Part shown: piece by piece, positions 20,713 to 48,141 of the stretch
Layout of the letters: each line of letters starts with the position of its first letter
Position numbering within the stretch: the first letter of the stretch is position 1
From: Gari tellinella
Lineage: Eukaryota > Mollusca > Bivalvia > Cardiida > Psammobiidae
Assembly: GCA_922989275.2 (NCBI GenBank)
Contig: OV277856.1
Span: 87,253,038 to 87,317,037 of the forward strand
Reading direction: 5' to 3'
Length of the DNA stretch: 64,000 nt
Program-made: the position numbers and the translations under genes
The notes under the pieces: model-generated
The model's database searches: none
Told to the model about the DNA's origin: nothing
The model's input: only the letters and a program-made list of their open reading frames with translations

Positions 20713-20928
20713 CCCTTAGCCCGCCAAATAAATTGTCGTCTGCTATATTTCTCGTCTGCTTCAAGTTTCAAAGTGCTTCAAAGTTGCTCAAAATTGCTGA
20801 AAATGTTGTTCGGGTATCAAACAGCTTGGATCCGGATGAGACGCCGAGTTACTCGGCGTCTCATCCGGATCCAAGCTGTTTGCATATGGAGCTATAGTCG
20901 TGAGTGGCAGGCTAAGGGTTAATAAGCA
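20713..20928. mobile_element. MITE-A with a perfect 65-bp type-1 hairpin
   Basis: Starts CCCTTAGCCCGCC and ends GGCAGGCTAAGGG with TTAA at 20929-20932 (left flank TAAA). The hairpin at 20818-20882 has two identical 31-base arms around TTA. The arms contain the GGATCCGGATGAG variant and a GCCGAG/CTCGGC core. Confidence 0.85.
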
Positions 20929-20986
20929 CATGCGTTCATTCTCATTCTAATGTGCACTTATGTATGATTATAAATAAATATGTTTA

Positions 20987-21130
20987 CCCTTTCACTCTTA
21001 ATAACACCAAAAAGTGCATTTGCAAACAGTTTGGATCCTGATCAGACGCCAAGTAACGGTGCGTCTGTGTTTGACACTAGTTTTGAAATGACTTCAGTCA
21101 TACTGCCTTAAATAGAACTTGAAATGGAAT
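20987..21130 (+). mobile_element. MITE-A, 3' part missing
   Basis: CCCTTTCACTCTTAATAACA, then the hairpin left arm CAAACAGTTTGGATCCTGAT. The right arm is cut short (TGCGTCTG joined to TGTTTGACAC). It continues as A sequence to about 21130. Confidence 0.7.
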
Positions 21131-21210
21131 GGCAGACAAGGGATTTTCTCAAAAGAGCGTTTTTTTCCCAAAACTTTATTGTTTATTGATGCCTTCAGTA
21201 CATGTACATA

Positions 21211-21398
21211 CAGTGGAGAAAACGTTATTTTCCCAATAAAAGCGTTACCCGGCGTCTGATTAAGCACCAATCTGTTTGCCACTCAGATTAAAATTAATGT
21301 ATAGAATTGTCAACGTGTTGTCATTTTCTATGTTTTAATGCAATGCGTTTTGCATTTCGTCTGCGTTTAAACGGGAAAGAATAATGTTTTCTCCACTG
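21211..21398 (+). mobile_element. MITE-C, left hairpin arm missing
   Basis: CAGTGGAGAAAACGTTATTT to GTTTTCTCCACTG, with TA before the left end. GTTACCCGGCGTCTGATTAA follows the left end directly, so the left arm was deleted and only the right arm remains. Confidence 0.8.
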
Positions 21399-21617
21399 TT
21401 TGTACAAGAAGGTAACATAAGGCGGAATGAGAAGATAATCATTTGGATAAAAGTAATACCACTAAAATTACCATATCGTACTGTTATATTTATAATTTTA
21501 TACTTCAAACTGTCTTAATATCAATACTATCTATCATAATAATTAACAACCATCCAATATTTCCCAATTATTAAAAGTACTATGATACCATTCATTAGTT
21601 GCGTTAACAATGTTTAA

Positions 21618-21745
21618 CCCTAGCGACGAGTATACTCGTCATTTACAAACCATGTAGATCTATATGTGAGGAGTACAATTATCCAATGCAAATAGTTTGA
21701 ACCCTGATCTATGAAACCCTCTGATCAGGGTCTGCACTAGTTGTC
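21618..21745 (+). mobile_element. MITE-A subtype 2, partial
   Basis: TTAA at 21614-21617, then CCCTAGCGACGAGTATACTC, then an eroded hairpin GCAAATAGTTTGAACCCTGA with right arm TCAGGGTCTGCACTAGTTG. Subtype 2 hairpins carry ACCCTGATCAG next to CAGTG. Confidence 0.55.
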
Positions 21746-21959
21746 ATTTTGTAATTATTATATTGTAAATTTAATGTTAACCCGAAATAATAAAAACATT
21801 AATCAGACTTTAATGGAATCAGGAGTTGTCCGTTCATAATTTCAGGGGTGAGTGAGTTGAGGCATAAATAGGTTCACAATGTTTTAGTCTACATTATAAT
21901 AATAAAGATACAAACGTTCTTGAGCGGCAACCATTACTTATAAAGAATGGTGACTTTGT

Positions 21960-22125
21960 AAGGCAGTTGGTTGCTTCAAGCAGGTCAACATTCATTCACA
22001 ATATACGCTAAAATTTCCTTTTGGAGCAATCTGGATTACTTATGGTCTGTTCTAAGTCGTCACCTGTCTTAAAGCCGCCCAACGAATAGATATTTTTGAA
22101 ATGGTAAATAACAAAGGTTTTACTG
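21960..22125 (+). mobile_element. MITE-B, degenerate
   Basis: GGCAGTTGGTTGCTTCAAGC, eroded hairpin, AGTCGTCACCTGTCTTAAAG and a right end GGTTTTACTG followed by TA. The left end was not found. Confidence 0.5.
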
Positions 22126-22346
22126 TATGTGTATAATAATGAGACAGAAGACCAGTATTCTTCGTTAATTACTTCCAACACCGCGAATACCCGCTACATT
22201 CCAATGGTAATGCTTAGAAATACCGCATACCCTGGCATACTGTCATAATTATAGCGGTACTAATGTGTCTTACTACAGAATAACATATGTTTAGCGGTCA
22301 TTCCATAAACATGCTTGGAACACTCGATAGACATATCACATCTTCA

Positions 22347-22424
22347 TGCAAGAAAAAAGGAAATGCAGAAAGAAAACTCCTGTAGGAGCTTTCTGCATTA
22401 CTTTTGTCTTGCAAGTACTTGTGG
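22347..22424. repeat. Type-2-like hairpin, CAGAAAGCTCC variant
   Basis: ATGCAAG and CTTGCA outer arms with GGAAATGCAGAAAGAAAACT and AGGAGCTTTCTGCATTACTT inside. The same short hairpin occurs at 33506-33566. Confidence 0.65.
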
Positions 22425-22596
22425 AAGGTTTGTTAATGTAAAATTGGTTTATTTTATTCGCTTGAGCTGCTGCTTAATGCACATCTACTGTATACATATA
22501 TCGAGAAGAACTATTGCCGTGCCAACATTAATTTGAGGTGTTCTCCTCATTTGCAATAACGCCGTGTCCGTAGCTTATAAACACGAATATGTTGTA

Positions 22597-22640
22597 CAGT
22601 AAAATTGCGATACTACGACCTCTAAATGAGGTTGTGTACA
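22597..22640 (+). repeat. MITE-B left end fragment
   Basis: CAGTAAAATTGCGATACTAC then GACCTCTAAATGAGG, after a TA. No hairpin or right end follows. Confidence 0.45.
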
Positions 22641-22649
22641 TACTTGCAT

Positions 22650-23550
22650 GTTGTGCTGCCATTAAACAAGTGACTCTATACTTAAATATTGATATAAAGC
22701 AGACGCCTACTTCATTTTCATCCTCCTGATCAGATATTTACTGCTTTAGATTTGTCAGGCATTCAAAAAATTCGTCTTTGCAGAGCTAGATTGTTGTTTA
22801 AAGAATGGCCACTAAACTAAATTGTCACTCTACTGAAAAAGTTTCTTGGTAATATCTAGGCAATATCGGGTCGATATATCTCAACCTGTCATTGAGTCAA
22901 ATATCATACAATACAGTATTGGAAATCATTTCTCTTTGAAAAATAAATCAACGAAATGCATTGAGGTCGAAGGACTCCGTGATATGTAAAATCAGGACAC
23001 ACTGTGCTCGAAATTGCTTGCCCTGGAAATTAAAATTAGGATCAATATATCTTGAAAGATGTAATTTTCAACGCTTTACTTTCATACGTACGGTTGTGTA
23101 CAGTTTCGTTTAAACGGAAACGGATAACGTCTTCTCCATTGTCTATAATCTTGTTGTAAATACCATTCATTATACATGAAGTATGATCAACACCAGTATT
23201 AAACAGTTTAGATCCTGTCAAAACTGTTTACAGTGCAACTATGATAACAGAAGAACAATAAAACAAAAGATCTCCAAAGCATTAAACTGCCACCCTTCTT
23301 AAAGGTAACCCAGCCATATTCTTATGGCGTGTCACTTAACACATATTGAACACCAGTTGTGCTAAGCAAACATTCTTCAGTGTGGGTGAATGGGCTGCAT
23401 GGAAATCATATTTCCTATTGATAAGCAAAGACACGGCCATTGCAGTTATCAGGACACGCTTTGGGTATCACGCATGTGCGACATGAAAGGGAGTGATAAT
23501 GATATTGACTGAGATAACCGCAGTTTACGTCAGCATCCACTCACCCAATA
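22650..23550. other. No gene recognised
   Basis: Only a collapsed type-1 hairpin at 23200-23233 (AAACAGTTTAGATCCTG joined to TCAAAACTGTTT) is visible. Confidence 0.4.
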
Positions 23551-23559
23551 CACAGGGCT

Positions 23560-23739
23560 CCAGATAAGAGGTAGTTTTTTCAACAAATCCAACATTTTTT
23601 AAACTCTTTTTAGCACCAAATCCTATGGTGTTACTACTCATTAGAATCGTCTCGAAGAGACGATTCTAATGAGTAGTGACACCATAGGGTTTCATTCAGA
23701 AATAAAGATTTTAGTGTTTGAAAAACTACCCTTATCTGG
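23560..23739. mobile_element. Palindromic MITE with 75-bp near-perfect centre
   Basis: Outer inverted ends CCAGATAAGAGGTAGTTTTT and complement (AAAAACTACCCTTATCTGG). The inner palindrome 23618-23692 pairs AAATCCTATGGTGTTACTAC with its complement across AATCGTCTCGAAGAGACGATT-like sequence, with about two mismatches. Confidence 0.85.
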
Positions 23740-23801
23740 TGCTCTGAATACATATGCTTCCTTTGATCTCTGTGTCTCGCCATACGAGATGTGATCTTGC
23801 A

Positions 23802-23869
23802 TTTGAAAAAGTTTGGATCCAGCACAACAGCTGAGTAACTCAGCTGGTGATCTTGATCCAAACTTTGTG
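23802..23869. repeat. Type-1 hairpin with altered core
   Basis: Arms GAAAAAGTTTGGATC and GATCCAAACTTTGTG. The core CAGCTGAGTAACTCAGCTG is fully paired but differs from the usual GACGCC core. Confidence 0.65.
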
Positions 23870-24397
23870 ATAGTCGTATTCAAGTTGTCTTCAGTGAAAG
23901 GGCATTTACGTAACCTAAATTTGAAGACGAATCAGATTAAAACCAGTTTATTGTTTTGCTACGAAATCGATTTACAATAAAATTGCACATTCAGAATATA
24001 TGTGCAATTTACTAAAACATGATATCAGATCAAATTCATAAATTGCATCTTGTTTTATTTATTAACTGATGTATAATTCGAGTGATAAATGGTTTGGATA
24101 CAAACTAAAAAAAACACTAATTGTTTGGCATCTGTTCTGGACCAAAATTGTTTGTAAAGGTATCATAATTCTTTGCCGCGCTCCTAAAATGGTACTCGAT
24201 AAGGGAGTAAAAGCTGTAGTAGGCAGATTTATTGTTTTCTAGATTATCAGCGAAACAACATTCAAATGCCTTTGAATAAATTGCAAGATGCTGACTAGCA
24301 GTCTTTAACTAAAACCATATTGTAACTTGAGACTTCAGTAAAAGCAAATAATACATTTAATATTGTTGCAATCGAACTATCTTGGAAGAACCTTCTA

Positions 24398-24644
24398 CAG
24401 TGGAGAATCTGTTATTCTTTCCCAATAAACGCGTTTTACGCTAAAACTATTATTTGCAGTGCAAACAGTTTGGAGCCAGATCAGACGCCGGGTTACACGG
24501 CGTCTGATAAGGCTCCAAACTGTTTGCCACCAAGATAAACAAGAATTATCAGAATTGTCCAAATGTTGTTCTTTTCTACGTTTTAGTGCTTTGCGTTTGC
24601 GTACGTTTGCGTTTAAACGGGAAAGAATAACATATTCTCCACTG
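24398..24644 (+). mobile_element. MITE-C, complete, type-1 hairpin
   Basis: TA at 24396-24397 and 24645-24646. Ends CAGTGGAGAATCTGTTATTC and ATATTCTCCACTG, 247 bp. Hairpin 24462-24526 has GGAGCC/GGCTCC arms. The inner flanks AACGCG.TTTACGCTAAAAC and GCGTTTGCGTACGTTTGCG are family-specific. Confidence 0.92.
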
Positions 24645-24659
24645 TACCTGTCATGAGAC

Positions 24660-24745
24660 TGATTAAATGCGTAGTGCAGGGCGAAAGTAAAGCAGAAAGT
24701 TTCTTTTGGAGCTTTTTGATTAACTTTTAAATAGTTTTAAGCGAG
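24660..24745. repeat. Type-2 hairpin fragment
   Basis: GCGAAAGTAAAGCAGAAAGT pairs with GGAGCTTTTTGATTAACTTT; no element ends are visible. Confidence 0.45.
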
Positions 24746-25292
24746 TATTTAAAAATATATCATCTGTTTGAGGGCAGTTGATTTACTGGTAGTTTACTGT
24801 TTTAAATGTAACCCATAATTTAGAGACATGGCGATACTATCTGCAAATGATTGTGATACAGACGAGACGCCGAATGCCATGTGATTAAGAAGCATCCATA
24901 CTGCTCGATCTCATGACATTTGTTTTCATTATCAAATGACAAATACACTCCAGCCAAATTTAGAAACTGCTGAATATGAGCTTTTTGCAGGAGACATATG
25001 TCAATATGAATAAAGGTTGAAAATGCTAAGTTCCTAGCACTCTTAGATTTAAGACATTAACCGTCTGTACGATGTGTGAGACTTTGTGATTGCAAACAGT
25101 TCATCAGGATCTAAACTGTTTGTCACTTTGATGATATTTCTGAAAGAAAATGCCTTCAAATCAACTTTGATAGACGACAATTATATAGGGTGTAGAACTT
25201 TCTTTTTTAAAATAGTTTCCATCCTTTCAGGTGTATTGTCTGCATCAATTGGTACATTTAAGTTATTATTTTAAACTATATAACCAGCACGC

Positions 25293-25358
25293 ACAAACAG
25301 TTTAGATGCAGGTGATACACCGAGTTATTCGACGTGTCACCAGAACCTAAACTGTTTG
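25293..25358. repeat. Type-1 hairpin
   Basis: CAAACAGTTTAGATGCAGGT and ACCTAAACTGTTTG, core CACCGAGTTATTCGACGTG. A collapsed copy is at 25091-25121 (arms joined with the core deleted). Confidence 0.6.
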
Positions 25359-25894
25359 CAATATGCGTCACAATTTCCCCGATGGCGTGTTAAAGATTAA
25401 ATAAAGTACTACCACATTTTGTCATCCGATACATTGTTAAGCAGAGGATGACGTAGATAGTTTTGTGTCAGATTGACAATAATTGAATTCATCATTTCTG
25501 CCCGGAATTAATGATTCCGTGTATCAAACCAACTTTAATGCTATCTTTAAAATGAGATGTCATTATTCAAATGAGAAACATGTGTTAACTCATTGGGCCC
25601 TAGTGACGCGTGTATGCACCGTTTACCCAAAGTGTATCTTTGAAGAGTACACATGTCCTATGCAAACAGTGAAGTCCCTGATCAGTGGGATCCTGCAGGA
25701 CTGAGCTAGACCTTTTGTGTATATCTTGACCATCAATCAAGATAGCCACCAATCAAGATAGCCAGACTCTATTGTACCAAGATTTTACGGGTTTGACAAT
25801 CGATCAAAGTATATGCACATTTATACAATCTGATTGTAAAATCGGTAAAATGAGACTGAATACATGAAAGAATCTCCGTGGTTCCTTGTCTTGC

Positions 25895-26117
25895 ATCAGC
25901 ATAAGAAGTTCACTATTTCTACTGCCAAAGTATCATCCGCTTAGATATTTTCGTCTGCTTTTATTTCTTAAATTTTTATCTTAAATATCTTAGACGCAGA
26001 TGTTTTAAGTCTCAAACAGATTGGGCTCTGGCCAGACTCCGAATAACCTCGGCGTCTGATCTGTTCTATACAAACTGTTTGCAAATTTAGATGTAGTTGG
26101 TTTTGTAAGCGAAGGGG
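25895..26117 (-). mobile_element. MITE-A with type-1 hairpin
   Basis: TTTCGTCTGCTTTTATTTC, hairpin 26013-26081 (AACCTCGGCGTCTGATCTG right side), end GAAGGGG followed by TTAA. The left end is uncertain. Confidence 0.6.
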
Positions 26118-26386
26118 TTAAATTTGGTCAATTATTCAACGTATTGGTTTCATTGCATGCTTACAACACATAAAATATTTTTCGGCTGAAACTTGAAGCT
26201 TACTTTGAATAAAGCAAACAACCGTATATAATTGTTGTTATAGGTTTATTCGTACTCGAAGCGTCAAATTTTTCAGCAGACGAACTTAAACAGCATGCAT
26301 AAAATTCCACAGACGTCAGAAATAAGCGGAAATTAGTGAGCGCACTATAGCCATTAGCCTGTTTACTGCCACAACATTTGCCTTTG

Positions 26387-26445
26387 GCAAATCAGTTCTG
26401 ATCTTGATCAAATGCAGAGTAACTCGGTGTCTGATCGGGATTCCT
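26387..26445. repeat. Type-1 hairpin, degenerate
   Basis: Core GCAGAGTAACTCGGTGTCTG with GATCTTGATC and GATCGGGATTC beside it. Confidence 0.4.
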
Positions 26446-26674
26446 TGTACAATACCTTCAATTAAATATACCAAAGCCTTAGCTAGCCTTGGGCCTATTT
26501 TCATCGACAGCAGACGAAAATTGTGATGCAGACTAAATTCCAGCGCTTAAAGGGTAAACAGGGATAGATAAACAAGAATTGGCAATCTAATTTCTCTTTT
26601 GTCTTCCACTCTGTAGCATCATTTAAATATTTATGCGCATTTTATTCATGTGTTAACAAAACAAGTCTCGTTAA

Positions 26675-26882
26675 CCCATTCACTGCCATGACGTCAGCAG
26701 CTTTATACAATTGTAGTCTGCTTTTAGTTCTCGAATTAAGTTATTTAAAAAAATGACCGAAGAAATATTGTAATGACTGTCCAACAATGTGGATCCTGAT
26801 CAGACGCCGCGTAACGCGGCGTCTGATCAGGATCAAAATTGTTTGCAAATGACCATTGTACGCGGGAAACTGAGTGAAGTGA
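26675..26882 (-). mobile_element. MITE-A, TTAA-flanked, type-1 hairpin
   Basis: TTAA at 26671-26674; ends CCCATTCACTGCCATGACGT and CTGAGTGAAGTGA; possible TTAA at 26883-26886. Hairpin 26782-26845 has GGATCCTGATCAGACGCCGC paired to its complement. Confidence 0.8.
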
Positions 26883-27283
26883 TTAATTCTCAGAGTGAAA
26901 AGAGCCTGTGCGTTTAGGTGTTAGATATTTAAATGCAAACACATAAATAGTTTTGTACAATGTTTGCACTAGGAGAGGCTCGCTTAATAATTCCTTTTGA
27001 ACTAGGCTTGAACGTAGTTTGGACATAACTTTCAGGAGAATAAAGTTCTTTCTTGTGAAATGCACAGTGAACAACAAATGGTTCGCGTTTTATCTTTGAG
27101 CCAGTATCCAACTTACTGCACTTGATAAGAAACATCAAAATGTTGTTTTTACCAGTCCGAAAATTAATGAACCAAACATTGAAAAATGGTTTTGAAGCAA
27201 ATCGGATCAAAGCATTTCAGGTATGTGGTTATATAAACGTCTTATGACAGAAGGAGAAATACAGAGAAAAAACGTCACTTTAA

Positions 27284-27513
27284 CCCTTAGGGTACATATC
27301 GCGACTGGGTGAGCATTTACCAACAGTATTGGTCCTGATCAGGCGTCGCTAACTCGGTGTCTAACCAGGATCCAAACTGTTTGACTACCATATATATGCT
27401 TCTTTGGTCAAAATACATAAAATGTGACTTTGAAAAAATACATGCAAACAAATGTTTTCAAGCAGACAATAATACTGTAGCATAACCGTCAATAATCATC
27501 ATGGCAAACGTAA
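27284..27513 (+). mobile_element. MITE-A, eroded right end
   Basis: TTAA then CCCTTAGGGTACATATCGCG; hairpin 27321-27383 (TTGGTCCTGATCAGGCGTCG left arm). It continues with A-type TTCAAGCAGACAATAATACT; the end is uncertain. Confidence 0.55.
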
Positions 27514-27526
27514 GGTTACGTTATTA

Positions 27527-27600
27527 GCATTTGTACACAGATTAGACTCGGGCCGAATGTCGAGTTGATCGGCGTCTGATCTGGAAACAAACTGTTTGAC
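27527..27600. repeat. Type-1 hairpin, degenerate
   Basis: ATGTCGAGTTGATCGGCGTC core, right arm AAACAAACTGTTTGACAC. Confidence 0.4.
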
Positions 27601-27604
27601 ACTC

Positions 27605-28335
27605 ATTTCCCATAAAAGCCAAAAGATATAAAAACAAAACAATTTAAAAGGTAAGTACAAAATTTCATAAAAGTAAATTAAGGAATTTAAAAACTAAATA
27701 CAAACAAAGCAAATCAAGTGCAAAACGGTAATACATATCTAAATAGGTATAAAACATACCACTACGTGTAGACGTGTCTGATTAGCAAATGCAAACAGTA
27801 TGTAGTAACAATTTAGAGAGTATGTTGACTCGGATCCTATACAGCAAAGGCAAATGATGTAGTTTAAAAAGAAAAGTACATAACCGCTGTTTTAAAACCG
27901 TGTGTTACAGTAGAGTATAAATATGCGCTATAGGAGGTTAGGTGTTGAGTTTAAACAGGCATTTGCTAAAAGTAGGATAAATAAAACAGAAGAAGTTCCA
28001 AACAGCTTTCACCTGTCTTTCAAAAAAACAAAACAATTAATGTTCTGTTGAGCACAAAACATATTACATGTTATCCAAAGTTCGTATCCTAGTAATTTTA
28101 TAGTAGACAACACAAATATAACAGACAACACGAAACTGAGTATAAAATCACGTGACTTCATATCCGCATTTTTCTAGGTACACACATTTCAACTATCCAG
28201 TTTAATTAATGTTTATTTTACCTTTCGTCTGAGACTCGGTCACTAGAGGATGGATCGTTGTTGGAACATCTCCAACCTGGAAAAGTGCACCTACGTCTAT
28301 TGTCATTCAAATTTGATGTTTATGTCAGTAAACAA
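27605..28335. other. No gene recognised
   Basis: AT-rich, with no open frame above 60 codons and no clear hairpin. Confidence 0.45.
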
Positions 28336-28338
28336 ATA

Positions 28339-28915: not shown

Positions 28916-29010
28916 ACTATGTCCTGATAAATTGCCTATAGGAAACATTCCCTGTGTCCAATTCGGCATTTGCTGTTTTACTTCCGGCTTGCTTAAAATA
29001 GGCACAAGTC

Positions 29011-29857: not shown

Positions 29858-30075
29858 TTATCCTTTTCACTCACAATGGCACTTAATAGCGCGTTTGCAA
29901 ACAGTTTTGATTCTGTTCAGACGCCGCGTAACGCGGCGTCTGAGCAGGATCCAAACTGTTTGACACTCGTATCGAAGTGTGTTATGTCATACTACACTGA
30001 ATATTACTTTTAAACGATTTTGCGAACAACAAAATTGAAGCAGACGATAATGAAACGGTGAAGGGGTATAACTCT
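29858..30075 (+). mobile_element. MITE-A with type-1 hairpin
   Basis: CCTTTTCACTCACAATGGC start; hairpin 29898-29962 (arms identical over GACGCCGCG); tail GAAGCAGACGATAATGAAAC then GGTGAAGGGG. Confidence 0.75.
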
Positions 30076-30079
30076 CACG

Positions 30080-30630
30080 ACAAATTAGAATTCTAAATCA
30101 GTTTTTAAAAGGTCAGTCATGTAATACATATATACTTGTACACATCTCTAAGAATATGTTTATGCTTTAAGAAACCCAAAAGTAATACAGTAACATCCTT
30201 ATATGAAACGTATGCATTATGTATACTATAGAAGTTTAGTGCATGAAAAGACGCCGTGTTTGTTGGGTCTCATGTTAAAGCACGAAGAATGCAAATATCA
30301 AATTTTTCGGACATTTGTTTTTCTCAAATAGCGATTCTCAAATCCTGACAGTGCTTCAGAAGTCTGAGAATAGTATACAAAATATTCAAACATTTATCAA
30401 TAGACTTGTAGCTGAATGGGTTGTCGTTGAAATATGAATGTCTTGGTGCGCTGAAAGGAATTCTGTCCAAGCACACACTCAATGAATATTAATACTGATG
30501 GAGTATTTCAAATTTCCAATGAGGGCACCCACACACTATTGGCCGAATGAATTCAATCACATTATCTTAGAAACACGTAGGTGTGCCATTTTGGAAACGT
30601 TTAATCATGTGTCGCCTAAAGCGATTACAA
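30080..30630. other. No gene recognised
   Basis: Nothing recognisable in either strand. Confidence 0.4.
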
Positions 30631-35281: not shown

Positions 35282-35397
35282 ATTTTTTTAATCGATGTAC
35301 TGGAATTCCGGGTTTTCGGTCTATGGGACCAGGCACCGATCATTTATAATCTTCAAAGTGAAATGCAATAGTTGTCTGCAAAACATATCGCAGTTTA

Positions 35398-35695
35398 CAG
35401 TAATCCCTCTCTACAACGACACCCAATGGGAGACAAAAATGTGTGAGTTTTTCGGAGGGAGTCGTTATGGGGAGGGGCATTCATTTACATTTGCAAACAG
35501 TTTGAATCCAGATCAGATGCCGCGTTGCGTTAATGTTTGTCTCTCGTCATTAAGTGTTTTTGCTGTCAAAATATTCAATATGTATCTTTGAGAAAAACAG
35601 CATTATACTTAATTGCCCTGTTTAAGGAACTTCAGCAAGGGTCGTTGTAAGGAGGGAGTCGTTGTTGGGAGGGCCGTTGTAGGGAGGGAACACTG
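35398..35695 (+). mobile_element. CCCTCCCTAC-ended MITE carrying a half type-1 hairpin
   Basis: TA at 35396-35397 and 35696-35697. Left end CAGTAATCCCTCTCTACAAC; right end is the complement of CAGTGTTCCCTCCCTACAAC. A GGAGGGAGTCGTTATGGGGA block precedes the hairpin arm GCAAACAGTTTGAATCCAGA, whose partner is missing. Confidence 0.8.
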
Positions 35696-35793: not shown

Positions 35794-35895
35794 CATCACA
35801 GATTCACCCACCGCGTGACAAACTCCCAGACGTCCACAGGTGCTAAATGCTATGAGGTTTACAGTGGAGAAGATGTTATTTTTAAAACCCGTTAA

Positions 35896-36103
35896 CCTTT
35901 TCATGATCAAATTATTCGGGAGAATTTTACACCTTCACCACTTTATTGTCGTCTGCTTCAGTAATGTTCACCGCAAAACACATTTCAGGTTGTATGACTT
36001 AATAAATAACAATAAGAGTGTCAAACAGTTTGGGTCCTGATCAGACGCCGCGTTTCGCGGCGTCTGATCAGGATTCAAACTGTTTGCAAGCGCGCTTTAA
36101 GGG
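35896..36103 (-). mobile_element. MITE-A with type-1 hairpin, possibly inside a MITE-C remnant
   Basis: TTAA at 35892-35895. Starts CCTTTTCATGATCAAATTAT and ends CGCGCTTTAAGGG then TTGA. Hairpin 36022-36086: core GCCGCGTTTCGCGGC. MITE-C start TACAGTGGAGAAGATGTTAT lies just before (35861-35880), and CGCCGGGTTACTTGGC follows at about 36153, suggesting A landed in a C element. Confidence 0.75.
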
Positions 36104-36109
36104 TTGACG

Positions 36110-36840
36110 AGTATTTCAAATCTTGGCTGCAAAAATAAATTGAAAATTGGTCAAACGCCGGGTTACTTGGCATCTGCTCTGACTCCAAACTGTATGCAGT
36201 GGACGATTTGTTCGTAAACGCGATTTTTGGGAATTATATACTTCTTCGCTTCTGCCTTCAATAATTTAGAACGGATATGAATTAACACACCCAACCACGG
36301 CGACGGGTATACGGTACGCACCATAAGAGAGCTCCAGCAGGATCCTTAAGATTAGGGTCTTAACTGTTTGTCAGTTTGCAATATAATGCAGAAAACAATC
36401 CTATATACGTACATGTATATAGCCATAAATGGACACTTGCCACGTGATTTATCCGTTAAAACGTTAAAGTGAATGCATTAAGACAGGTGTATGTTTACTC
36501 ATGTGGACGTGATGCAGGAAGTCGCAAAATACCACCTGCAATGAAGCATGTGTTTTGAAAGGTCGCCAAACTGGGAGTTGGCTGTATTTCACGGCGTTCC
36601 AGGACTGGAATCTCTCTGATACACGAGACTAGTCTGCAAGTTTTATGTATCATCTTTTAGCAAACAATGGTATTCTTTCCAAACACATTGGTTTCTGATA
36701 AGACGGCAAGTAATCTGACTCAACTTTGTTAATACTATCCAAGTTTTAAGAAGAATGTTCTGCGTTTGATCTGAATCCAAACTGGTTATTTATTAGTAGG
36801 AATGGAGTACCTGTGGGCAGTGAAAATGTTTATTGGCGAA
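36110..36840. other. No gene; eroded type-1 pieces
   Basis: Half hairpins at 36140-36198 and 36331-36375 (subtype 2), and CGACGGGTATACGG at 36300. No coding signal. Confidence 0.4.
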
Positions 36841-38225: not shown

Positions 38226-38232
38226 TTGGATA

Positions 38233-38806: not shown

Positions 38807-38829
38807 TTCTTCGAATAAAGACAGCTTAA

Positions 38830-39068
38830 CCCTTTCATGATCAAATTATACGGGAGAGTTTTACCCCTTCACCGCTTGATTGTCGTCTGCGTCAATATTG
38901 TTGTCTGCAAGACACGTTTCAAAGTTAGATTTGAGGTTGTATGACTTAATAAATATTGATATGAGTGTCAAACAGTTTGGGTCCTGATACAACGCCGCGT
39001 TACGCGGCGTCTGATCAGGACCCAAACAGTTTGCAAACGCGGTTTAAGGCGTCATTGAGAGTGAAGCG
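38830..39068 (-). mobile_element. MITE-A, complete, TTAA-flanked, type-1 hairpin
   Basis: TTAA at 38826-38829 and 39069-39072, 239 bp. Ends CCCTTTCATGATCAAATTAT and TCATTGAGAGTGAAGCG. Hairpin 38969-39033 carries GGGTCC/GGACCC arms. Confidence 0.9.
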
Positions 39069-39195
39069 TTAACATAAGTTTGACCTATTTAAAAGTATCA
39101 AGGTTGGTCATTGACATAATGATCAAAATTGGTTTGCTTGTATTGGAGTTGGTTTACTTTATAAAATCAAAGGTTAATGAACTCGTACATAAATT

Positions 39196-40471: not shown

Positions 40472-40678
40472 CCCTTAACTGCCTTACCCATAGTGCAATG
40501 GTTATTTGCATACAATTAAGACCCTGATAAGACACCGCCTTACGCGGCGTCTTATCAGGATCAAACTGTTTGATATGTGTTACGATGCTACTTGAGTCAG
40601 TTTACCTAACCTTTAAATATGAGAAATAAAAGAAGACGACAATTGTTTAAAGCAGATGCCATCATGTCAGAGAAACGT
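40472..40678 (+). mobile_element. MITE-A with type-1 hairpin
   Basis: TTAA at 40468-40471, CCCTTAACTGCCTTACCC. Hairpin 40509-40572 has the paired variant GATAAGAC/GTCTTATC. Tail AAGACGACAATTGTTT and ATCATGTCAGAGAAACG. Confidence 0.75.
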
Positions 40679-40763
40679 TTTATCCTGCTCCAAGCTATAA
40701 CTACATACATGTATCATCACAAAGACTTTCTTTTGCGTGGCCATGATAGATGAAGTTATGGTA

Positions 40764-41008
40764 CAGTGGAGAATGTGTTTATTCTTTCCCGTTTAAACGC
40801 AAACGAAACGCAAACGCAAAACATTAATTTGTAGAAAAGGACAATTTTTTAACAATTCTGACTTTCAATTTTTATCTGAGTGGCAAACGGTTTGGAGCCT
40901 GGTCAGACGCCGGGTTACCCGGCGTCTGATCAGGCTCCAAACTGTTTGCACTTGAAATAATAGTTTTAGCGTAAACGCGTTTATTGGGAAAAATAACGTT
41001 TCTCCACT
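40764..41008 (-). mobile_element. MITE-C, complete, type-1 hairpin
   Basis: TA before CAGTGGAGAATGTGTTTATT; right end ACGTTTCTCCACT. Hairpin 40884-40948 pairs GGAGCC/GGCTCC with a GGGTTACCC core and two mismatches. Confidence 0.9.
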
Positions 41009-41014
41009 TATATG

Positions 41015-42410
41015 ATGATCTATTATGTTATAGCACGTGCTTTAGTGATTAGGGTCAGACCAGTCCGCGTACAAAAAAAACAATAACAAAAGAATAGATC
41101 TTTCACAGGCGTATCTTTTTGGAATTTGTGAAATATTGCATATGCTGCAATATAGAACGTATGTGGCAAACCGAAATATTGCATTAATGAGGCAGCGAAA
41201 TATATGGATTAGAATCTCAATAAAATTATTTTCGAGTTAATTGAAAGCAAAAAAGTATAATATAATGCTTCTGTATGTATACGCTCGTATATATTAACGT
41301 TTGAACTAGTTTTAGTTCAATGACATCATAACTACCAAAGCCATTCTCTCTAGGTCGGTATTATAGAATATACTAGTTTAATCTGCAATAAATTATAGAT
41401 TCTTTTATGTAGGTAATTGAAACTGTGGCGGCTTCCTTCGATCGAACTCAGATAAAAGCTAGGCTGTTGATATGCGGTTCGCTTGTCTGTTAGGTAGATA
41501 AAAGGTTTAAATAATTAAATATGCCAGTAGGGGCTAGAGCGCCAGTCTATCTAGCATTAAAAAAACTTTGAAACTCCCATTGATGATTAGATTGTTCTTT
41601 GTGTACAACAGTAACATCTATATTAGTCAACCACTCAAATTAACATTGATCATGCTAAAAAGTCGTCTGCTTCAAATTTATCGTCTGCGGAAACAAATTA
41701 AAATTGGTTTTATTGTTTTTCTTGCTGAAGAAAAATAAATCTTAGTAACAAACAGTTAGGATTCAGATCACACACCTCTTAGCTGGATCCAAACTTTGAT
41801 AAGGCTAAAAATGCATGGTCAGGCTCAGAAAAGACGATTGCTATACATATATGACATACTTTTGTTCTGAAACAAATATTCAAATATATTTCATATGTGT
41901 AATGATTCTTCATCAATTGAGCTGCTTAATACAGGTTTGAATGTATCGAATCGACCTTCAGCCGCTTTCATGAACTTGTAGCCGAAATAGAGTTCGTTCA
42001 CTTCCGAACATTGTTTGAAAAATTTGTAGAAACCTGGTTTTGAATTTAAAACCAATTGTTGGAAAGGAAATTGTACTCTAACAAATGTCAAGGACATTCA
42101 AACCATTTGTAATTTTGTGAGGCGTTCATAAATTTCATGTGGTTTCAGATTAATCGTTCTTTGCCAGGGAAAACTAATGGATGAAGGGGGATGTTGCTGA
42201 TTCGATTTCCAGGAGAAACTAAGTCCTATTCGACTTAATTGCGCCATGATTCAGATATCTGAAGCATTAAGATCAGTAATAAAAGCTGATCGTTGTAAAT
42301 GTGTGACCTGTATGGGCTTAAACGAGATTAAATACGATAACGTAACCTATTTGGAGCTTTCTGCCTGGTTTACACAAGTTTTAACTCGTTGAACGCTGAC
42401 GACGAAACTT
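41015..42410. other. No gene; one truncated type-1 hairpin
   Basis: AAACAGTTAGGATTCAGATC with GGATCCAAACTTTG at 41752-41805. Elsewhere there is no domain or clear repeat. Confidence 0.4.
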
Positions 42411-42416
42411 TGAGTA

Positions 42417-42474
42417 TAGTTTTAAATCCAGATGAGACGCCGAATATCTCGGCGTCTCATCAGGATCCTATTTG
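42417..42474. repeat. Type-1 hairpin
   Basis: AATCCAGATGAGACGCCGA and TCGGCGTCTCATCAGGATC, the GATGAG variant also present at 20818. The outer arms are lost. Confidence 0.6.
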
Positions 42475-42637
42475 ACACCCTGAATATATTTTGAAAAAAA
42501 GAGGTTTTAGAATATGTAGCAGACAATGTTTGTTGCAGATGACAATTCCACTACATTTACCCATTCGATTAATAAATTGAAATAGTTACATTATAAACCC
42601 AGTGTTACCATATATAGCACAACATTATGTAAAATGT

Positions 42638-42840
42638 AGTGTAACGTCTAAATTACGACCACTAAATGACACCATGTTTTGGTGTTTAAGACAGCTGACT
42701 GCTTAAATCAAGATGAACGTAAAGCAGAAAACTCCGACAGGAGCTTTCTGCTTTACTTTCATCTTATTTAAGCCGTCATCTGGTTTTAATACAACCAATG
42801 TGCTATTTTCAGTAATAGTAAGACTAGAGATGTTCTACTG
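42638..42840 (+). mobile_element. MITE-B, type-2 hairpin
   Basis: GTGTAACGTCTAAATTACGA start and GAGATGTTCTACTG end. Hairpin GAACGTAAAGCAGAAAACTC pairs with GAGCTTTCTGCTTTACTTTC. Confidence 0.8.
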
Positions 42841-43295
42841 TTTATGAACATCGTTACAGTAGGAACAAAAGTTTTAAATATGTATGTTCAACACGAGACT
42901 AATAGTAAACCGTTGATTGCAGTTATAGTAAAACAGGGAATGTGCAGTACAAACACACGTGGTTGAGGGGGAACATGAGCCACGTTATGAGAAGTGAACA
43001 CTGTGTATATACCGACCAGAGACTGCGTTAGTTTAGCATATCATTAGAGGTTGTAGTGTTAAACACGGGTCTATACAGAGATAGATATAAGCATCACTGG
43101 CTTACTAGTAGTCAGAAAGTTAGTTCTAAATAATATATACGATACCCTTTGTTGAGTTATTGACACTCAGCTTCTGGATATTAATGACTAGTACAATGGC
43201 AACATGTTCTATTACAGTATAATAAAGATAGAGTAAATCCCTCTAAAGCGGCATTCAAAAGCTCACTGTCAGTCTGAAAGATAGGTTGCAGCGTA

Positions 43296-43414
43296 CAGTG
43301 GAGAAAACGTTATTCTTTCCCAAAAAACGCGTTTACGCTAAAACTATTATTTCAAGTAAAAACAGTTTGGAGCCAGATCAGACGCCCGGTAACCCGGCGT
43401 CTGATCAGGCTCAT
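43296..43414 (+). mobile_element. MITE-C, right half cut off
   Basis: TA then CAGTGGAGAAAACGTTATTC. Hairpin 43358-43414 keeps the left arm and core GCCCGGTAACCCGGC, then breaks in GATCAGGCTC where unrelated sequence begins. Confidence 0.85.
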
Positions 43415-43437
43415 AATTCCCAAGGAGGAACATTCTT

Positions 43438-43682
43438 CGGGCCCGAGGTTATAAAACTTAAAATGCACTCCGTGGCCAAAACTCATTTTTGATTACAGGC
43501 TCAAGATTTTACAAAACACGCTTTATTTGATTTTAGCAAGCTCATTTCGATTCAACTTTACAGCAGAAGTTTGCATGCATAGTTATAAATAAAATGTCTC
43601 TCGACATGTTATAGGCTTAGAAAAATTCTGAGTTTTGAGCACTGAGTTCATTTTAAGTTTTATAACCTCGTGGCCCGGCCCC
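43438..43682. mobile_element. MITE with GGGCCCGAGGTTATAAAAC ends
   Basis: Left end GGGCCCGAGGTTATAAAACT, right end complement AGTTTTATAACCTCGTGGCC. Second inverted block AACTCATTTTT and AAAAATTCTGAGTTTT. It lies just after the broken MITE-C. Confidence 0.75.
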
Positions 43683-43686
43683 AAGT

Positions 43687-43806
43687 CTATAAAGCTTTTG
43701 TGATAAGTCTGAGATCGTTCTCAAGTATGTGATTGGTCAGAATTTAGCTTTTGCTGACCAATCAAATGCTTGAAAATGATATCAGACTCAACTCAAAAGC
43801 GTTCTA
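43687..43806. mobile_element. MITE-E, upstream of the kinase gene
   Basis: TATAAAGCTTTTG and CAAAAGCG ends, inner arms CTCAAGTATGTGATTGGTCA and TGACCAATCAAATGCTTG. The right end lies 161 bases before the kinase ATG. Confidence 0.7.
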
Positions 43807-43870
43807 ATATGTATTTAGTAGGCTAAAAACAGTTTGTACTCGGCATGTCTCTAAATGTTTGCTTTACATT

Positions 43871-43882
43871 TGTATTTTGCAG
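43871..43882 (+). other. Candidate 3' splice acceptor in the 5'UTR of the kinase gene
   Basis: A pyrimidine-rich run ends in TTTTGCAG, 85 bases before the kinase start codon. It would let a distant non-coding first exon join here. No matching donor could be identified, so this is an inference from the motif only. Confidence 0.35.
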
Positions 43883-43967
43883 ATACAATTTAACAGTTGA
43901 TGTCCATGACAAGAATGCTGATTCAGATGTGTGGTATATTCTGCTGAACCTGTTAAGTCGATGAAAT

Positions 43968-45005
43968 ATGAGTATGCCGAAATCACCACGATCCAGTACT
44001 TCCGACAATCTTCTACAACTCAATCTGAAGGACCATTACGAGATTTTGCGAGATCTCGGCAGAGGCACCTATGGTAAGGTTGTTCTCGCGAGATGTAAGG
44101 AGACGGGCACGCAGGTTGCCCTAAAGGTCCTTCCAAAGAACACCACAAAACTTCGAGAATTCCAGAGAGAGTTCCAGTATAGTTACTTTCTTTCTCCTCA
44201 CATAAATATTGTAGACTCGTACAATGTAGCATTCGAGACGAGGAGTTCTTTCGTTTTCGCACAGGAATACGCCCCCGTTGGTGACCTGTTTGATGCCATT
44301 CCACCACAACTTGGTATGAAGGAAAAAGACGTGAAATTAATCATCAGGCAAGTTGCGTCAGCTATGGAGTTTATGCATAGTAAACATTTAGTTCATCGTG
44401 ACATTAAACCTGAAAATGTTATAATTTTCGAACAAGATTTCAGTAAAGTGAAACTTATGGATTTCGGCATGACGCGAAAAGATGGTACTGTGATAAGAAA
44501 AACCAACGGAAGTATTCCGTACACTCCTCCGGAAATATGCGAAGCAGTTCGGAACGAAAGCATTACGGTGTCGGCCAGCGGAGATGTGTGGGCATTCGGT
44601 GTCCTTCTGTTTTGTATGTTGACTGGTAATTTTCCATGGGAAAATGCAGACATTGGTGATATTTATTTTAATGAGTTTGTCTCCTGGCAGCGGAGGAAAA
44701 CTACTAAAATTCCGTCACAGTGGAAGCGGTTTACACCGCGACTGCTGAGGTATTTCCGAAAAGCTCTAGACATTAAGCCAGAAAGAAGATGTGGCGTCCA
44801 AGAAATCACAAAATACATGAACAATGGCTGGTTACTTCCGTCCAAGAACTCTGACGATTCGTCCGACGATGATGATGACGAATACGATTCCGGAAGTGAT
44901 CATGCGGATAACTTGGCACTTATCCTTCAAAACCATGGTATTGACACAAAAGTGGACAAACACCTCCGAGAAGTCCGAATATCGGAGTGGCTTTTGTCGT
45001 TGTGA
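43968..45005 (+). CDS. SBK-family serine/threonine protein kinase (SBK1-like), intact single-exon reading frame
   Basis: 345-residue protein kinase, predicted to phosphorylate Ser/Thr; substrate unknown. Seen: glycine loop GRGTYG (31-36), VALK with Lys53, probable helix-C Glu68, catalytic loop HRDIKPEN (143-150, Asp145), DFG (165-167), an activation segment ending PPE (187-189) where most kinases have APE, DVWAFG (206-211) and Arg274 near the domain end. All catalytic residues are present, so it should be active. The stretches DFGMTR, GSIPYTPPE, LTGNFPW and PSQWKRFT are characteristic of the SBK (SH3-binding-domain kinase) family. After the domain comes an acidic Ser/Asp-rich stretch (295-312) and a short C-terminal tail; the proline-rich SH3-binding tail of vertebrate SBK1 is absent. 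An in-frame TGA at 43962-43964 lies just before this ATG, fixing it as first in frame; Met3 is an alternative. The whole CDS is one exon. No neighbouring gene is visible. Confidence 0.93.
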   Translation: MSMPKSPRSSTSDNLLQLNLKDHYEILRDLGRGTYGKVVLARCKETGTQVALKVLPKNTTKLREFQREFQYSYFLSPHINIVDSYNVAFETRSSFVFAQEYAPVGDLFDAIPPQLGMKEKDVKLIIRQVASAMEFMHSKHLVHRDIKPENVIIFEQDFSKVKLMDFGMTRKDGTVIRKTNGSIPYTPPEICEAVRNESITVSASGDVWAFGVLLFCMLTGNFPWENADIGDIYFNEFVSWQRRKTTKIPSQWKRFTPRLLRYFRKALDIKPERRCGVQEITKYMNNGWLLPSKNSDDSSDDDDDEYDSGSDHADNLALILQNHGIDTKVDKHLREVRISEWLLSL

Positions 45006-45132
45006 CTAACAAAATGTGTACAGTCAGTGTTGTGTTACTTGAAAAAATCTCTCCGGTGCTTCTCACTTAAGCATGAAACAAGGCTTATCTTAGTAATAGT
45101 GGCTTTCTTAAGTTTCCTTGTAATGATATTTC

Positions 45133-45189
45133 AATAAATAACATACGAATATATTAAAGACAGACAATGCATACTGTTATTTCAATAAA
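45133..45189 (+). promoter_or_regulatory. Two AATAAA polyadenylation signals for the kinase gene
   Basis: AATAAA occurs at 45133-45138 and 45184-45189, 130-185 bases after the stop codon, in AT-rich sequence. This fits a short 3'UTR of about 150-210 bases. Confidence 0.5.
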
Positions 45190-45194
45190 CTACA

Positions 45195-45725
45195 CAAATC
45201 AAACATGATAAATTATCTGAGCAGAAAGCCAATTTAAAGTTGTTTTTTTTTAATATCTAGCATGTGATAGGTCGTAAGCAATCAGCGTATACCCATATGA
45301 GACACCACGAAACGCAGCGTTTCATTAGGTTCTACTGTGTTTACCACGATTTTTTAAAAATATAATAAGATCTCTGTATAGCGGCTCTATAATTTATTTT
45401 GGACAAATACATCATTTAAATTGCAAGCGCCGAATGAACTAACAATGTACAGATGGGTTACATAATGCTTTGGAAGTCTTAAGTATTTCGGAGAAAAAAG
45501 ATATTGCTTAAGTACATTATTGTTAGTAGACTAGATACATCACATGGCTTTCAACTGCTTGTCATAGAGTGTTTATCCATCCGCAGCTTTGATTAAACAT
45601 GAACATTTTCAACTTCAAATAAATTAATTACAGTTCTTTATTTTAAGCTATCTGTCAACTAATTTCATAGTTTAAGTGACAATACGGATTAAGTTATCTA
45701 TCATGATTTTGCTTTTAACCCTTTT
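45195..45725. other. No gene recognised
   Basis: Eroded GAGACACCACGAAACGCAG near 45300 may be a half hairpin; otherwise empty. Confidence 0.4.
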
Positions 45726-45732
45726 TGTGCAA

Positions 45733-45803
45733 AAACTAGTGGTTTGATTCCAGATCAGAATACGATAACTCGGTGATTGATCCGGTTCCAAACTGTTCGA
45801 TAC
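45733..45803. repeat. Type-1 hairpin, degenerate
   Basis: GTTTGATTCCAGATCAGA and GATCCGGTTCCAAACTGTTC around ACGATAACTCGGTGA. Confidence 0.5.
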
Positions 45804-45829
45804 TCTACAAATGTTTGTTTCTTAATTTA

Positions 45830-46037
45830 CCCCTTCACTGTCTTACCCTAAGTACATTGATTATTTGCAAACAATTTGGATCATGATCAGACGCCGCATT
45901 ACGCGTCGTCTGATCAGAGACCAAATTGTTTGCAAATAAATTCAATATACCTTAAGTCAAATAACTTAAAATCTAAGATTGAGAAATAAAAGCAGGCGAA
46001 AATATTTTAAAGCTCATGACGTCATGTCAATGGAGGG
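45830..46037 (+). mobile_element. MITE-A with type-1 hairpin
   Basis: CCCCTTCACTGTCTTACCC to GTCAATGGAGGG. Hairpin 45868-45932, in which both arms carry CAATTTGG/CCAAATTG, a paired departure from CAGTTTGG. Confidence 0.8.
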
Positions 46038-46184
46038 TTTAAATACATTCCAAATTTGAAAAACGTAGAATAATATCATTGCATGATAAGGGTTGAAGTT
46101 TCATATTACGCTGACATGTACACGTGTTACTAACTCTGATGAGTGAGAGATAGACGGAAAAATGGACAGATGATATAAATGCAA

Positions 46185-46350
46185 AAATAAATGAATTAAT
46201 TGAAAGAATAATCGATGCCAGAATGAATGAATGAATGAATGACTAAATTAATTGAATAAATGCATTATTGAAAAAAGAATGAATGAATGAATGAATGAAT
46301 GAACGAATAAATGTTGAACGAATAAATGAATGAATGAATGAATGAATAAA
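46185..46350 (+). repeat. (GAAT)n microsatellite
   Basis: Imperfect GAAT/GAATAAAT runs in three blocks, the longest at about 46279-46305. Confidence 0.9.
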
Positions 46351-46545
46351 ATTCCTAATATCAGTTCGGCCAAACTTGTGTTGAGCGGCCATTTGAAAGA
46401 GTAATAAATGTTAGATGTGGTCAATTAGACTGGGTCAACTAATGTGAAGACAAATATCATACAGAAAATGTATTGATAATACCATATCATATCATAACAT
46501 CTAGCAAAATAACCATGCTCAACACAGGTTTGGTCGTCTTTGTAC

Positions 46546-46793
46546 AGTAGGGAAAATGTTATTCTCTCTCAGTCAACGGGTTAATGCTGAAACAATTATT
46601 TCCATTGCAAACAGTTTATATCCAGATCAGACGCCTGGTAACCAGGCGTCTGATCTGGATATAAACCGTTTGCCACTCAATTATTAAATATAACTGTTAA
46701 CTGTTTTCAATTATCATCCATTTTCTACACTTTACTGAGTAGCATTTGCCATTAGTTTTGTTTCAATGGGAAAGAATGTCGTTTTCTCTACGG
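46546..46793 (+). mobile_element. MITE-C, complete, type-1 hairpin TGG/CCA variant
   Basis: TA at 46544-46545 and 46794-46795. Ends CAGTAGGGAAAATGTTATTC and TCTCTACGG. Hairpin 46608-46672 has 31-base arms with one mismatch; the core reads CCTGGTAACCAGG and the arms TATATCC/GGATATA, all paired changes. Confidence 0.88.
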
Positions 46794-46799
46794 TATTCT

Positions 46800-47625
46800 T
46801 GTAGTATTTTATGTGGGTGTACAAAAAACAAGACGCCGAGAACTGTCATGCCTTACTAACCGGCAACTCAAAAGAATAGGAATCATCAATATTTCATACA
46901 TCTGACAGCTTAATGAAGGGCAAAGGTAAAGCAGAAAGTTCGAGATTTATGTCATCTTTGTTCTGTGTTCGGTTAGATGTATTTAATTTCTGCGAGCGGC
47001 CGCTTAAATAGAGTTTGATTGCAAATTATAGCTCAAATGCCTAGTGTTGTACAAACGTCCAAAACTGTATCGTGTTTATTGGTCATGGTCGTACTTAAGC
47101 ACGGATTGCAACATAAAATATCCAAAAGGCTCCTTCAAAAAGACATTCATTACTGTTGTCCGTCAGTGCACAGCAATCTGTATTACTTGTTTCCAGGCAT
47201 TTTTCAGTTGTATTTATTCAATACAGGTTTTAATGCAAGTATATGATTTTTGGTACAAGCCCAAATAATTACTGACGGGTTTGAGTCTATGGGAGTTCAA
47301 GGGCATCATTTTCGTGAAGAACAAGCGAAATTAATGCAAAGTGGTATAAATAGTAACACTAATAAACAATCAAATATGTATCTAACGGCTTTGAAATAAT
47401 GCATTTCGAAGAATTTTGAGGTCGTGTTACACAAATGGTATTTGTGTGCAAGACAAAGAAAAATAGAATAGCCATAATGTTTAAGTGCTTGCGACTTGGC
47501 CTATGTCCTGCAATGGGAAGTCATACCACTTAGGATAGTTTTTTGCTCCTACAAAATTTGGTTATTTAAAATAAGTTTGATTGTTATTATTATAAACTCA
47601 ATGCCCTCAAACATAGACCCAATAC
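46800..47625. other. No gene; one type-2 fragment
   Basis: GGCAAAGGTAAAGCAGAAAG at 46919-46938 is a type-2 arm without its partner. Short overlapping frames at 47019-47268 show no domain. Confidence 0.4.
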
Positions 47626-47631
47626 TTCAAC

Positions 47632-48141
47632 TAGAATGGACAATACATTATTCGTTCCCAATAAAAAAAATCAATGCTGGTAACCTAATTCTTATGCCCA
47701 TTGGAAACAGTTTGGAACCAAACAGACTTCGGGTTACAGTGGAGAATCTTTTATTCTTTCCCGTTTAAAACGCAAACGTACGCAAACGCAAAGCACTAAA
47801 ATGTAGAAAATAACAACTTTTGGACAATTCTGATAATTCTTGTTTATCTTTGTGGCAAACAGTTTGAAGCCTGATCAGACGCCGGGTTACCCGGCGTCTG
47901 ATCTGGCTCCAAACTGTTTGCACTGCAAATAATAGTTTTAGCGTAAACGCGTTTATTGGGAATGAATAACACATTCTCCACTGTACCCGTACCCGGCTTC
48001 TGGTCAGACTTCAAACATTTTACCAATCTGATTAACGAAAGGTCATTGACATATTCAAATGGTTTTCATTTTCTACATTGAGTGCAATGCGTGTTGCATT
48101 TTGTGTCGTTTGAAAAGTAACGAATAACGTATTCTCCACTG
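47632..48141 (+). mobile_element. MITE-C interrupted by another MITE-C
   Basis: The left half (ATGGACAATACATTATTCGT to CTTCGGGTTA, ending 47736) and the right half (TACCCG.. from 47984 through GGCTTCTGGTCAGAC to ATTCTCCACTG and TA) lie either side of the complete copy at 47737-47983. The break is at the TA of the GGTTACC hairpin loop. Confidence 0.75.
47737..47983 (-). mobile_element. MITE-C, complete, nested
   Basis: TA at 47735-47736 and 47984-47985, 247 bp. Ends CAGTGGAGAATCTTTTATTC and ACACATTCTCCACTG. Hairpin 47856-47920 with core GCCGGGTTACCCGGC. Confidence 0.92.

Follow-up and report, generated by a model that had tools for sequence, protein, structure and literature searches.

The window analysed here, meaning the whole 64-kb stretch of DNA (C1:87253038-87317037 in the 1.6-Gb, 80-contig assembly of the bivalve Gari tellinella), contains many copies of a 65-bp near-perfect palindrome, the type-1 hairpin, that sits inside miniature inverted-repeat transposable elements (MITEs) with different outer sequences, or frames. 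An initial annotation had listed eight such elements; they and their common hairpin proved real, while its further claim that no obvious sequence is shared outside the hairpin did not hold as it stood. Seven frames were compared (X, W, Z, U, T, Y and V), among them W (TTAA-CCCTTAGCC), X (TTAA-CCCTTTCACTC), Y (TA-CAGTGGAGAA) and V (TA-CAGTGCTCCCTC, also given as CCCTCCCTAC).

The W element at 20713..20928 (minus strand; fold -41.4 kcal/mol) has a perfect hairpin of the GAG subtype at 20818-20882, with GCAGACGACAAT downstream of it. Five X elements score highly against a profile whose own alignment includes them: 38830..39068 (minus; hairpin 38969-39033; 283.8 bits over 38810-39070), 49093..49356 (plus; 49132-49196; 275.7 bits), 29860..30092 (plus; 29898-29962; 251.5 bits), 35875..36124 (minus; 36022-36086; 249.1 bits) and 61942..62127 (plus; 61978-62042; 194.2 bits), the last with an internal deletion in its right part. 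Two further X elements on the plus strand lie at 62998..63244 (hairpin about 63036-63101; 192.2 bits) and 13042..13281 (166 bits), the latter with an 8-bp tip deletion at hairpin positions 35-42. Y-like pieces with decayed junctions lie on both sides of the X element at 35875..36124, which suggests nesting within a Y remnant. Four Y elements are likewise part of the profile alignment, at 24397..24646 (plus; hairpin 24462-24526; 266.4 bits), 47735..47984 (minus; 47856-47920; 267.6 bits), 40762..41008 (minus; 40884-40948; 248.8 bits) and 46544..46795 (plus; 46608-46672; 223.6 bits); this last copy is divergent, and its hairpin has four two-sided complementary changes and one arm mismatch. In a fifth Y element (21210..21399, plus), a deletion from -24 to 33 has removed the left arm as far as the hairpin tip. 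The V element at 35395..35695 (plus) has a nested TTAA core and has lost the right hairpin arm from near the tip (37-53), and the left part of another V element, with one hairpin arm and the loop, lies at 9527..9700 (plus) and is followed by sequence not matching V.

By profile, the window contains 68 type-1 hairpins (1.06 per kb), and 25 regularly placed 10-kb samples (250 kb) contain 173 (0.69 per kb); the window is somewhat hairpin-rich and otherwise ordinary. The sampled density therefore extrapolates to roughly 1.1 million hairpins genome-wide, and the 51 Y copies in 335 kb to some 240,000. Exact copies of CAAACAGTTTGGATCC number 97,770 in the genome (48,816 + 48,954), compared with one for the reversed control. 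Density is very uneven: among the first 20 random stretches of 10 kb, L011, L014 and L016 have no hairpin, and L020 and L017 have 16 each. Eight loci (L001-L008), biased because they were picked for holding the exact arm word, are absent from the density and included in the frame, deletion and pair counts; L006, which overlaps L005, was left out of later counts. A search of the hairpin core against IMG/VR gave no match, and no published description of the type-1 hairpin was found in open-licence PubMed Central (PMC) papers, judging by their titles and the opening lines of their abstracts; a sequence-word match in the mollusc paper PMC6011040 was, in the available part of that paper, an unrelated octopus sequence.

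Outside the hairpin, some copies of each frame carry the motif NCACTC next to it on one side; on the other side the motif is very rare. With orientation set by the outer flanks only, and with all flank fractions taken from the sampled stretches, NCACTC (at most one mismatch) was found on one side of 97/257 hairpins and on both sides of one (random positions 1.2%), and NCACTC together with GCAGACGACAAT on one side of 60/257 and on both sides of none (random positions 0.1%); both motifs had first been picked by eye in the data in which they were then tested, which counts against these figures. The GCAGACGACAAT motif is common to the TTAA frames and the CCCTCCCTAC frame. When the right flanks were compared in 21 pairs, using single copies of Z, U and T and sequences typed from few copies of W and V, seven pairs (X-V, X-Z, X-W, V-Z, W-U, U-T and Y-U) were not equalled in 1000 shuffles, Y-W was equalled once, and the remaining 13 were equalled by 10 to 418 shuffles. 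The X-V match over 60 nt (z 5.7, 0/1000) persisted without NCACTC (2/1000). Support for Y-U (z 3.9) and Y-W (z 3.3) dropped to 30/1000 and 70/1000 once NCACTC was removed, and the X-Y right flank beyond the hairpin was not significant (z 1.1, 151/1000). On the left, W-U, U-T and W-T were equalled by 14, 5 and 79 of 1000 shuffles. A TTAA-flank profile without NCACTC, trained on 48 sequences with X, W, Z, U and probably T-like flanks in or near the set and V excluded, found X, W and Z (the training set) and, weakly, V (1/500 shuffles); it did not find Y. Therefore, the initial statement that no obvious sequence is shared fails for V, given the flank and profile matches, and nearly holds for Y.

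The organisation of V provides the clearest account of how the hairpin came into a TA frame. Its core consists, in order, of the hairpin, NCACTC, two GCAGACGA motifs and a CAGTGAAAGCGTTA end that is identical at 13/14 positions to one TTAA-family tip (2/2000 shuffles), this being the best of three such tips tried, the other two reaching 292 and 425 of 2000. Because of this likeness, the genome was searched with the V flanks joined at the presumed TTAA. Scoring of the best 40 of 2546 candidates gave one match across the joint (C6:86505933-86506044, 82% identity) among the 41 matches listed. It belongs to a complete but empty V frame (L040, C6:86505902-86506073), flanked by TA at either end, in which the sequence GGGAGGGAAAATTAAGACATAATTG contains a single TTAA at the predicted joint; filled copies are flanked by TA in part. 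In the first 288 kb, joined flanks gave no match to a hairpin-less form of any of the seven frames. The best-kept filled copies read GGGAGGGAAAATTAAGACTTGGC...core...GC(G)TTA(A)GACATAATTG, with TTAA at the left joint in 2/14 copies read and at the right joint in 2/10 (TTAG in six). One TTAA in the empty frame and two around the core in the best-kept copies agree with the insertion of a hairpin MITE at a TTAA within a TA MITE. As in a composite MITE, frame and insert are each recognisable and one empty frame exists. On this evidence, V is a TTAA hairpin MITE inserted in a TA MITE, the composite having multiplied as a TA element; because the composite exists in many copies as such, the hairpin entered a second transposition system.

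Y has TA on both sides in 29/37 pairs and, like V, is presumably of Tc1/mariner type, a label that rests on the TA and CAGTG ends. Its consensus holds a single TTAA, at position 217 of 250. In three Y copies (L020, L027 and L018) an element some 210 to 300 bp long, bordered by TTAA at each end, is inserted at this TTAA (two copies) or within 10 nt of it (L018), which demonstrates that TTAA hairpin MITEs insert inside TA-flanked MITEs. We infer that Y took up its own hairpin in the same way as V, longer ago; its joints can no longer be read, and the direction from the TTAA group to the TA frames is suggested by the greater diversity of the TTAA group. Capture of the hairpin by a different system, as first proposed, is thus borne out for V by the TTAA insertion and the one empty frame, and stays an inferred step for Y.

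The TTAA-flanked elements themselves resemble piggyBac-type MITEs. TTAA was found on both sides in 3/5 W pairs and 3/9 X pairs, the others deviating at one or both sides, and at the left end of X in 11/19. The terminal inverted repeats are of the CCC type (X consensus AACCCTTTCAC...GTGAAAGGGTTAA; W copies TTAACCCTTAGCC...GGCTAAGGGTTAA), with TTAACCCTTTCACTC and TTAACCCTTAGCC as end words of X/W-type elements. Elements of the group are laid out as a left TTAA, about 36-39 nt of spacer, the 65-bp hairpin, NCACTC, a stretch of variable sequence that is in many cases followed by two GCAGACGACAAT-like motifs, and finally a GGGTTAA tip. The genome gave 86 matches to PF13843, of which 20 cover at least 346 of the 349 positions without a stop. 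Four loci (L036-L039) represent one 3.1-kb piggyBac family with 98.7-99.8% identity (L036, 698-3821) and ends reading TTAACCCTTTCGGCGCC (also given as TTAACCCTTT) in 3/4 loci read. A second family (L034/L035, 1-3987; 98.8% identical) ends in TTAACCCTTTCCCACATGGAAGCG, its other end lying outside the loci. Judged by the identity of these copies, a recently active piggyBac system is therefore present. The tip of the MITEs carrying another palindrome, the type-2 hairpin, is 22/24 identical to that of L034/L035, which, by this single visible tip, is their likely mobiliser. Nested within L034/L035 is a TTAA element (L034, 944-1144) in which a type-1-like remnant was seen by eye (6.2 bits).

The two arms of the type-1 hairpin were found to change together. 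In an alignment of 47 hairpins, hand-picked from 82 listed (the 35 omitted being mostly older and including L012:1847), 20/30 pairs had changed on both sides compared with 8.7 after shuffling, and two-sided cells numbered 94 versus 21.5 (0/500). Among 78 hairpins, 56 two-sided complementary changes were counted where 5.4 were expected, 14 of them from one element; this element, L012:1847, has kept a palindrome with one mismatch although 14 of its pairs have changed. The tree and the pair counts exclude copies with over 9 or 12 arm mismatches. The palindrome at L012 1847-1912 has a type-1 outer arm, a wholly different tip and a TTAACCCATT frame. The matched change of the arms, as read from these alignments, is far above chance. 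We propose that the hairpin extrudes as DNA during replication and that template switching between the arms may copy one onto the other. The centre base was exchanged between A and T in 12/17 changes, compared with 40/100 at A/T positions of the stem, an excess that as a mark of loop inversion by template switching is suggestive only.

An alternative explanation, which we consider unlikely and which survives best among those weighed, is that the C-terminal domains of the transposase bind to the palindrome and that the matched changes reflect selection on both half-sites. The TTAA-group palindrome lies near one end only, as in piggyBat in the available part of PMC11707139, the GCAGACGACAAT repeats lie on the opposite side, and the word CAGACG is common to both. 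However, half-sites of 30 bp would be far longer than the sites described in that part of PMC11707139, both autonomous piggyBac families seen are without the hairpin as a part of their own (with one L034/L035 end outside the loci), and the persistence of the L012 palindrome through its changed pairs also speaks against this explanation. Selection on a transcribed RNA hairpin, as a source or precursor of small RNAs, is an improbable explanation even if a near-perfect 30-bp stem and strong co-variation would suit it: no Rfam match was obtained at gathering thresholds, and G-T cells were not above A-C cells (100 vs 140 in 110 hairpins; 18 vs 21 in 54 young ones, young meaning at most three arm mismatches), a test that is not clean because transcription of the opposite strand could explain the A-C surplus (p 0.012).

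Half hairpins, as noted in the initial annotation, do exist, and most are better described as products of deletion than as half-modules. Across 51 Y, 24 X, 11 V and 6 W elements (92 in all), 43 deletions of at least 6 bp were recorded, 21 with a breakpoint in the hairpin (two in one element). Breakpoints fell at hairpin positions 28-38 in 16/21 cases versus 5.3 expected (0/20000 simulations), this zone having been chosen after inspection of the data, which weakens the test. Tip-centred deletions therefore account for most of the halves; in the window, the half at 35494 fits such a deletion and that at 9621 a plain truncation. The simplest mechanism would be that the tip of the hairpin opens and one arm is then lost.

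Another reading is that the 65-bp hairpin itself moves, as the initial annotation had considered, or is a module freely exchanged between MITE families by recombination. Frame assignment was limited to hairpins covering at least 56 model positions (165 near-full ones). In the window and sampled stretches, 52/54 young hairpins sit in an assigned frame; on inspection by eye the remaining two also show ends of the CCC type, with TTAA in one case and TTAC in the other, and no clear solo hairpin with its own target duplication was seen among these 54. In 80 copies, hairpin identity was 0.885 within frames versus 0.778 between them (0/500 permutations), and the nearest neighbour lay in the same frame for 68.2/80. 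A hairpin tree, poorly resolved with 65 columns and 6/65 inner branches well supported, required 14 frame-label changes (minimum possible 6, shuffled mean 35.3, 0/200 as low). It follows the frames clearly for Y (37/38 in one cluster), V and W (two changes each), little for X (13 changes vs 17.7 shuffled) and not for Z (6 vs 6.5); X and Z are intermixed and their consensus hairpins are identical. Hairpin and frame thus descend together in part. The presence of one hairpin in TTAA and TA frames, and the near restriction of what Y shares to hairpin and NCACTC, would suit a mobile or exchanged hairpin; set against the young copies and their neighbours, the common sequence that extends past the hairpin on one side and the TTAA insertion that explains V, we find this very improbable, and a solo mobile hairpin was rejected for want of solo copies among the 54 young ones. 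The hairpin does not look independently mobile and is better seen as an internal part of a diverse TTAA-flanked (piggyBac-like) MITE group. Of the first interpretation, the passage between TTAA and TA frames has stood, the same hairpin being present in both, and the self-moving hairpin has not. Least probable of all is that the frames are one anciently diverged family with TA and TTAA ends derived from one another, to which NCACTC in all frames and the likeness by eye of the W, U and T left tips would point: target classes and ends differ, and the TA-flanked V frame is empty of any core, so that the V ends are not diverged ends of a TTAA element and the idea was rejected for V.

Taken together, we consider it quite probable that the hairpin belongs to a TTAA MITE group and reached the TA frames by nested insertion, and that its arms co-vary and one arm is lost from the tip. 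Several observations weigh against this. The empty V frame is only one of 41 matches listed, and it could be a precise excision product instead of the original state; either origin would need a TTAA-specific transposase. The V left joint has a shorter form without TTAA in 10/14 copies, TTAT in one and TTAG in one, and the left end of the core measures 17 nt, compared with 36-39, and has no clean CCCTT tip. The elements nested in Y carry type-2 hairpins (full in two, reduced in L020), not type-1, and no empty Y frame was seen, a negative with no genome-wide search behind it. Y appears from the flank comparisons to have little in common with the TTAA group beyond hairpin and NCACTC. Compared with the two piggyBac families (TTAACCCTT included), X tips agree at 14-15/24 positions and W tips at 13/24, and neither family carries the type-1 hairpin as its own part in the loci covered (one L034/L035 end lies outside them). 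Finally, related copies have many of the two-sided changes in common, and co-variation by itself does not tell whether template switching or selection for pairing is at work.

Other hairpins were also seen. In the window and the 250 kb, 69/145 near-perfect palindromes are not type 1; such families are centred at 9896, 10704, 32820, 51835, 55601 and 56938 in the window and occur in most sampled stretches. The type-2 hairpin (arm CTTAAAGCAGGCTGAAAGTAAAGCAGAATGCGCC) lies between TTAACCCW and WGGGTTAA in 91/160 arm matches and type 5 in 9/21, compared with 17% at random positions, a level not exceeded by types 3 (10/49) and 4 (3/14). Ends resembling GTCGTAATAGAGAGGTTTTACTGTA also recur frequently, both in the window (10546, 39564, 50923, 57153 and others) and in the sampled stretches. 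The window also contains an open reading frame for an SBK1-like kinase (43968-45005) whose nearest relatives are 84-89% identical (best 89%) and whose best named relatives are from molluscs (Haliotis 78%, Potamilus 76%).

More tentatively, and as a possibility we would not put foremost, about a million palindromes may evolve as two-armed units, extrusion and template switching matching the arms and tip opening dropping one. The form of the hairpin, rather than its sequence, would outlast stem turnover and change of transposase, and hairpin-bearing MITEs would therefore be a class whose survival is due to the hairpin itself. If this is true, the copies record hairpin-processing events. Apart from this possibility, the case shows how a module can pass between unrelated transposon systems: a whole element inserts at a matching target and the composite multiplies, with the empty frame still present. 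Such massive natural replication of one 65-bp palindrome would allow extrusion, arm correction and tip-centred loss to be measured in an animal genome, measurements usually made with few engineered palindromes.

Nested MITEs with an amplified composite are of an ordinary kind, seen here with unusual clarity and in very large numbers. Centre-break palindrome resolution, in which deletions from the palindrome centre leave an asymmetric remnant, was reportedly described by Cunningham et al. in 2003 in cells with engineered palindromes; the deletions seen here similarly start at the centre, in genomic copies of a short natural palindrome. Tips like CCCTT are typical of piggyBac-type MITEs, and the TTAA group has such tips and, as is the case for those MITEs, near-identical piggyBac copies in the same genome. 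Similar to the piggyBat and piggyBac ends in the available part of PMC11707139, the group combines a TTAA target with a palindrome near one end; unlike the palindromes given there (about 14 bp and imperfect in piggyBat, 19 bp in piggyBac), that of type 1 is 65 bp long and near perfect, and neither of the autonomous families seen has it. The template-switch hairpins of PMC8794818 likewise have matched changes of several bases in their two arms; that paper, in the part available, concerns RNA genes, whereas template switching is proposed here for a transposon palindrome with very many copies. A bivalve transposon survey (PMC10294476) reports that MITEs fill much of bivalve genomes and that the PiggyBac and Mariner superfamilies are present; its available part leaves MITEs without finer classes and contains no such hairpin. 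In MER6/MER6A, according to the accessible text of PMC6887750, a Tc1/mariner MITE contains, and has multiplied, the conserved V domain of short interspersed nuclear elements (SINEs), so that, as here, one module is found in two transposition systems; there part of a retroposon was captured, whereas here it was a DNA MITE with a palindrome, inserted at TTAA and with an empty frame present. Nested capture is thus already known, and the scale, the co-evolution of the arms and the tip-centred losses make the type-1 hairpin a notable variant of it.

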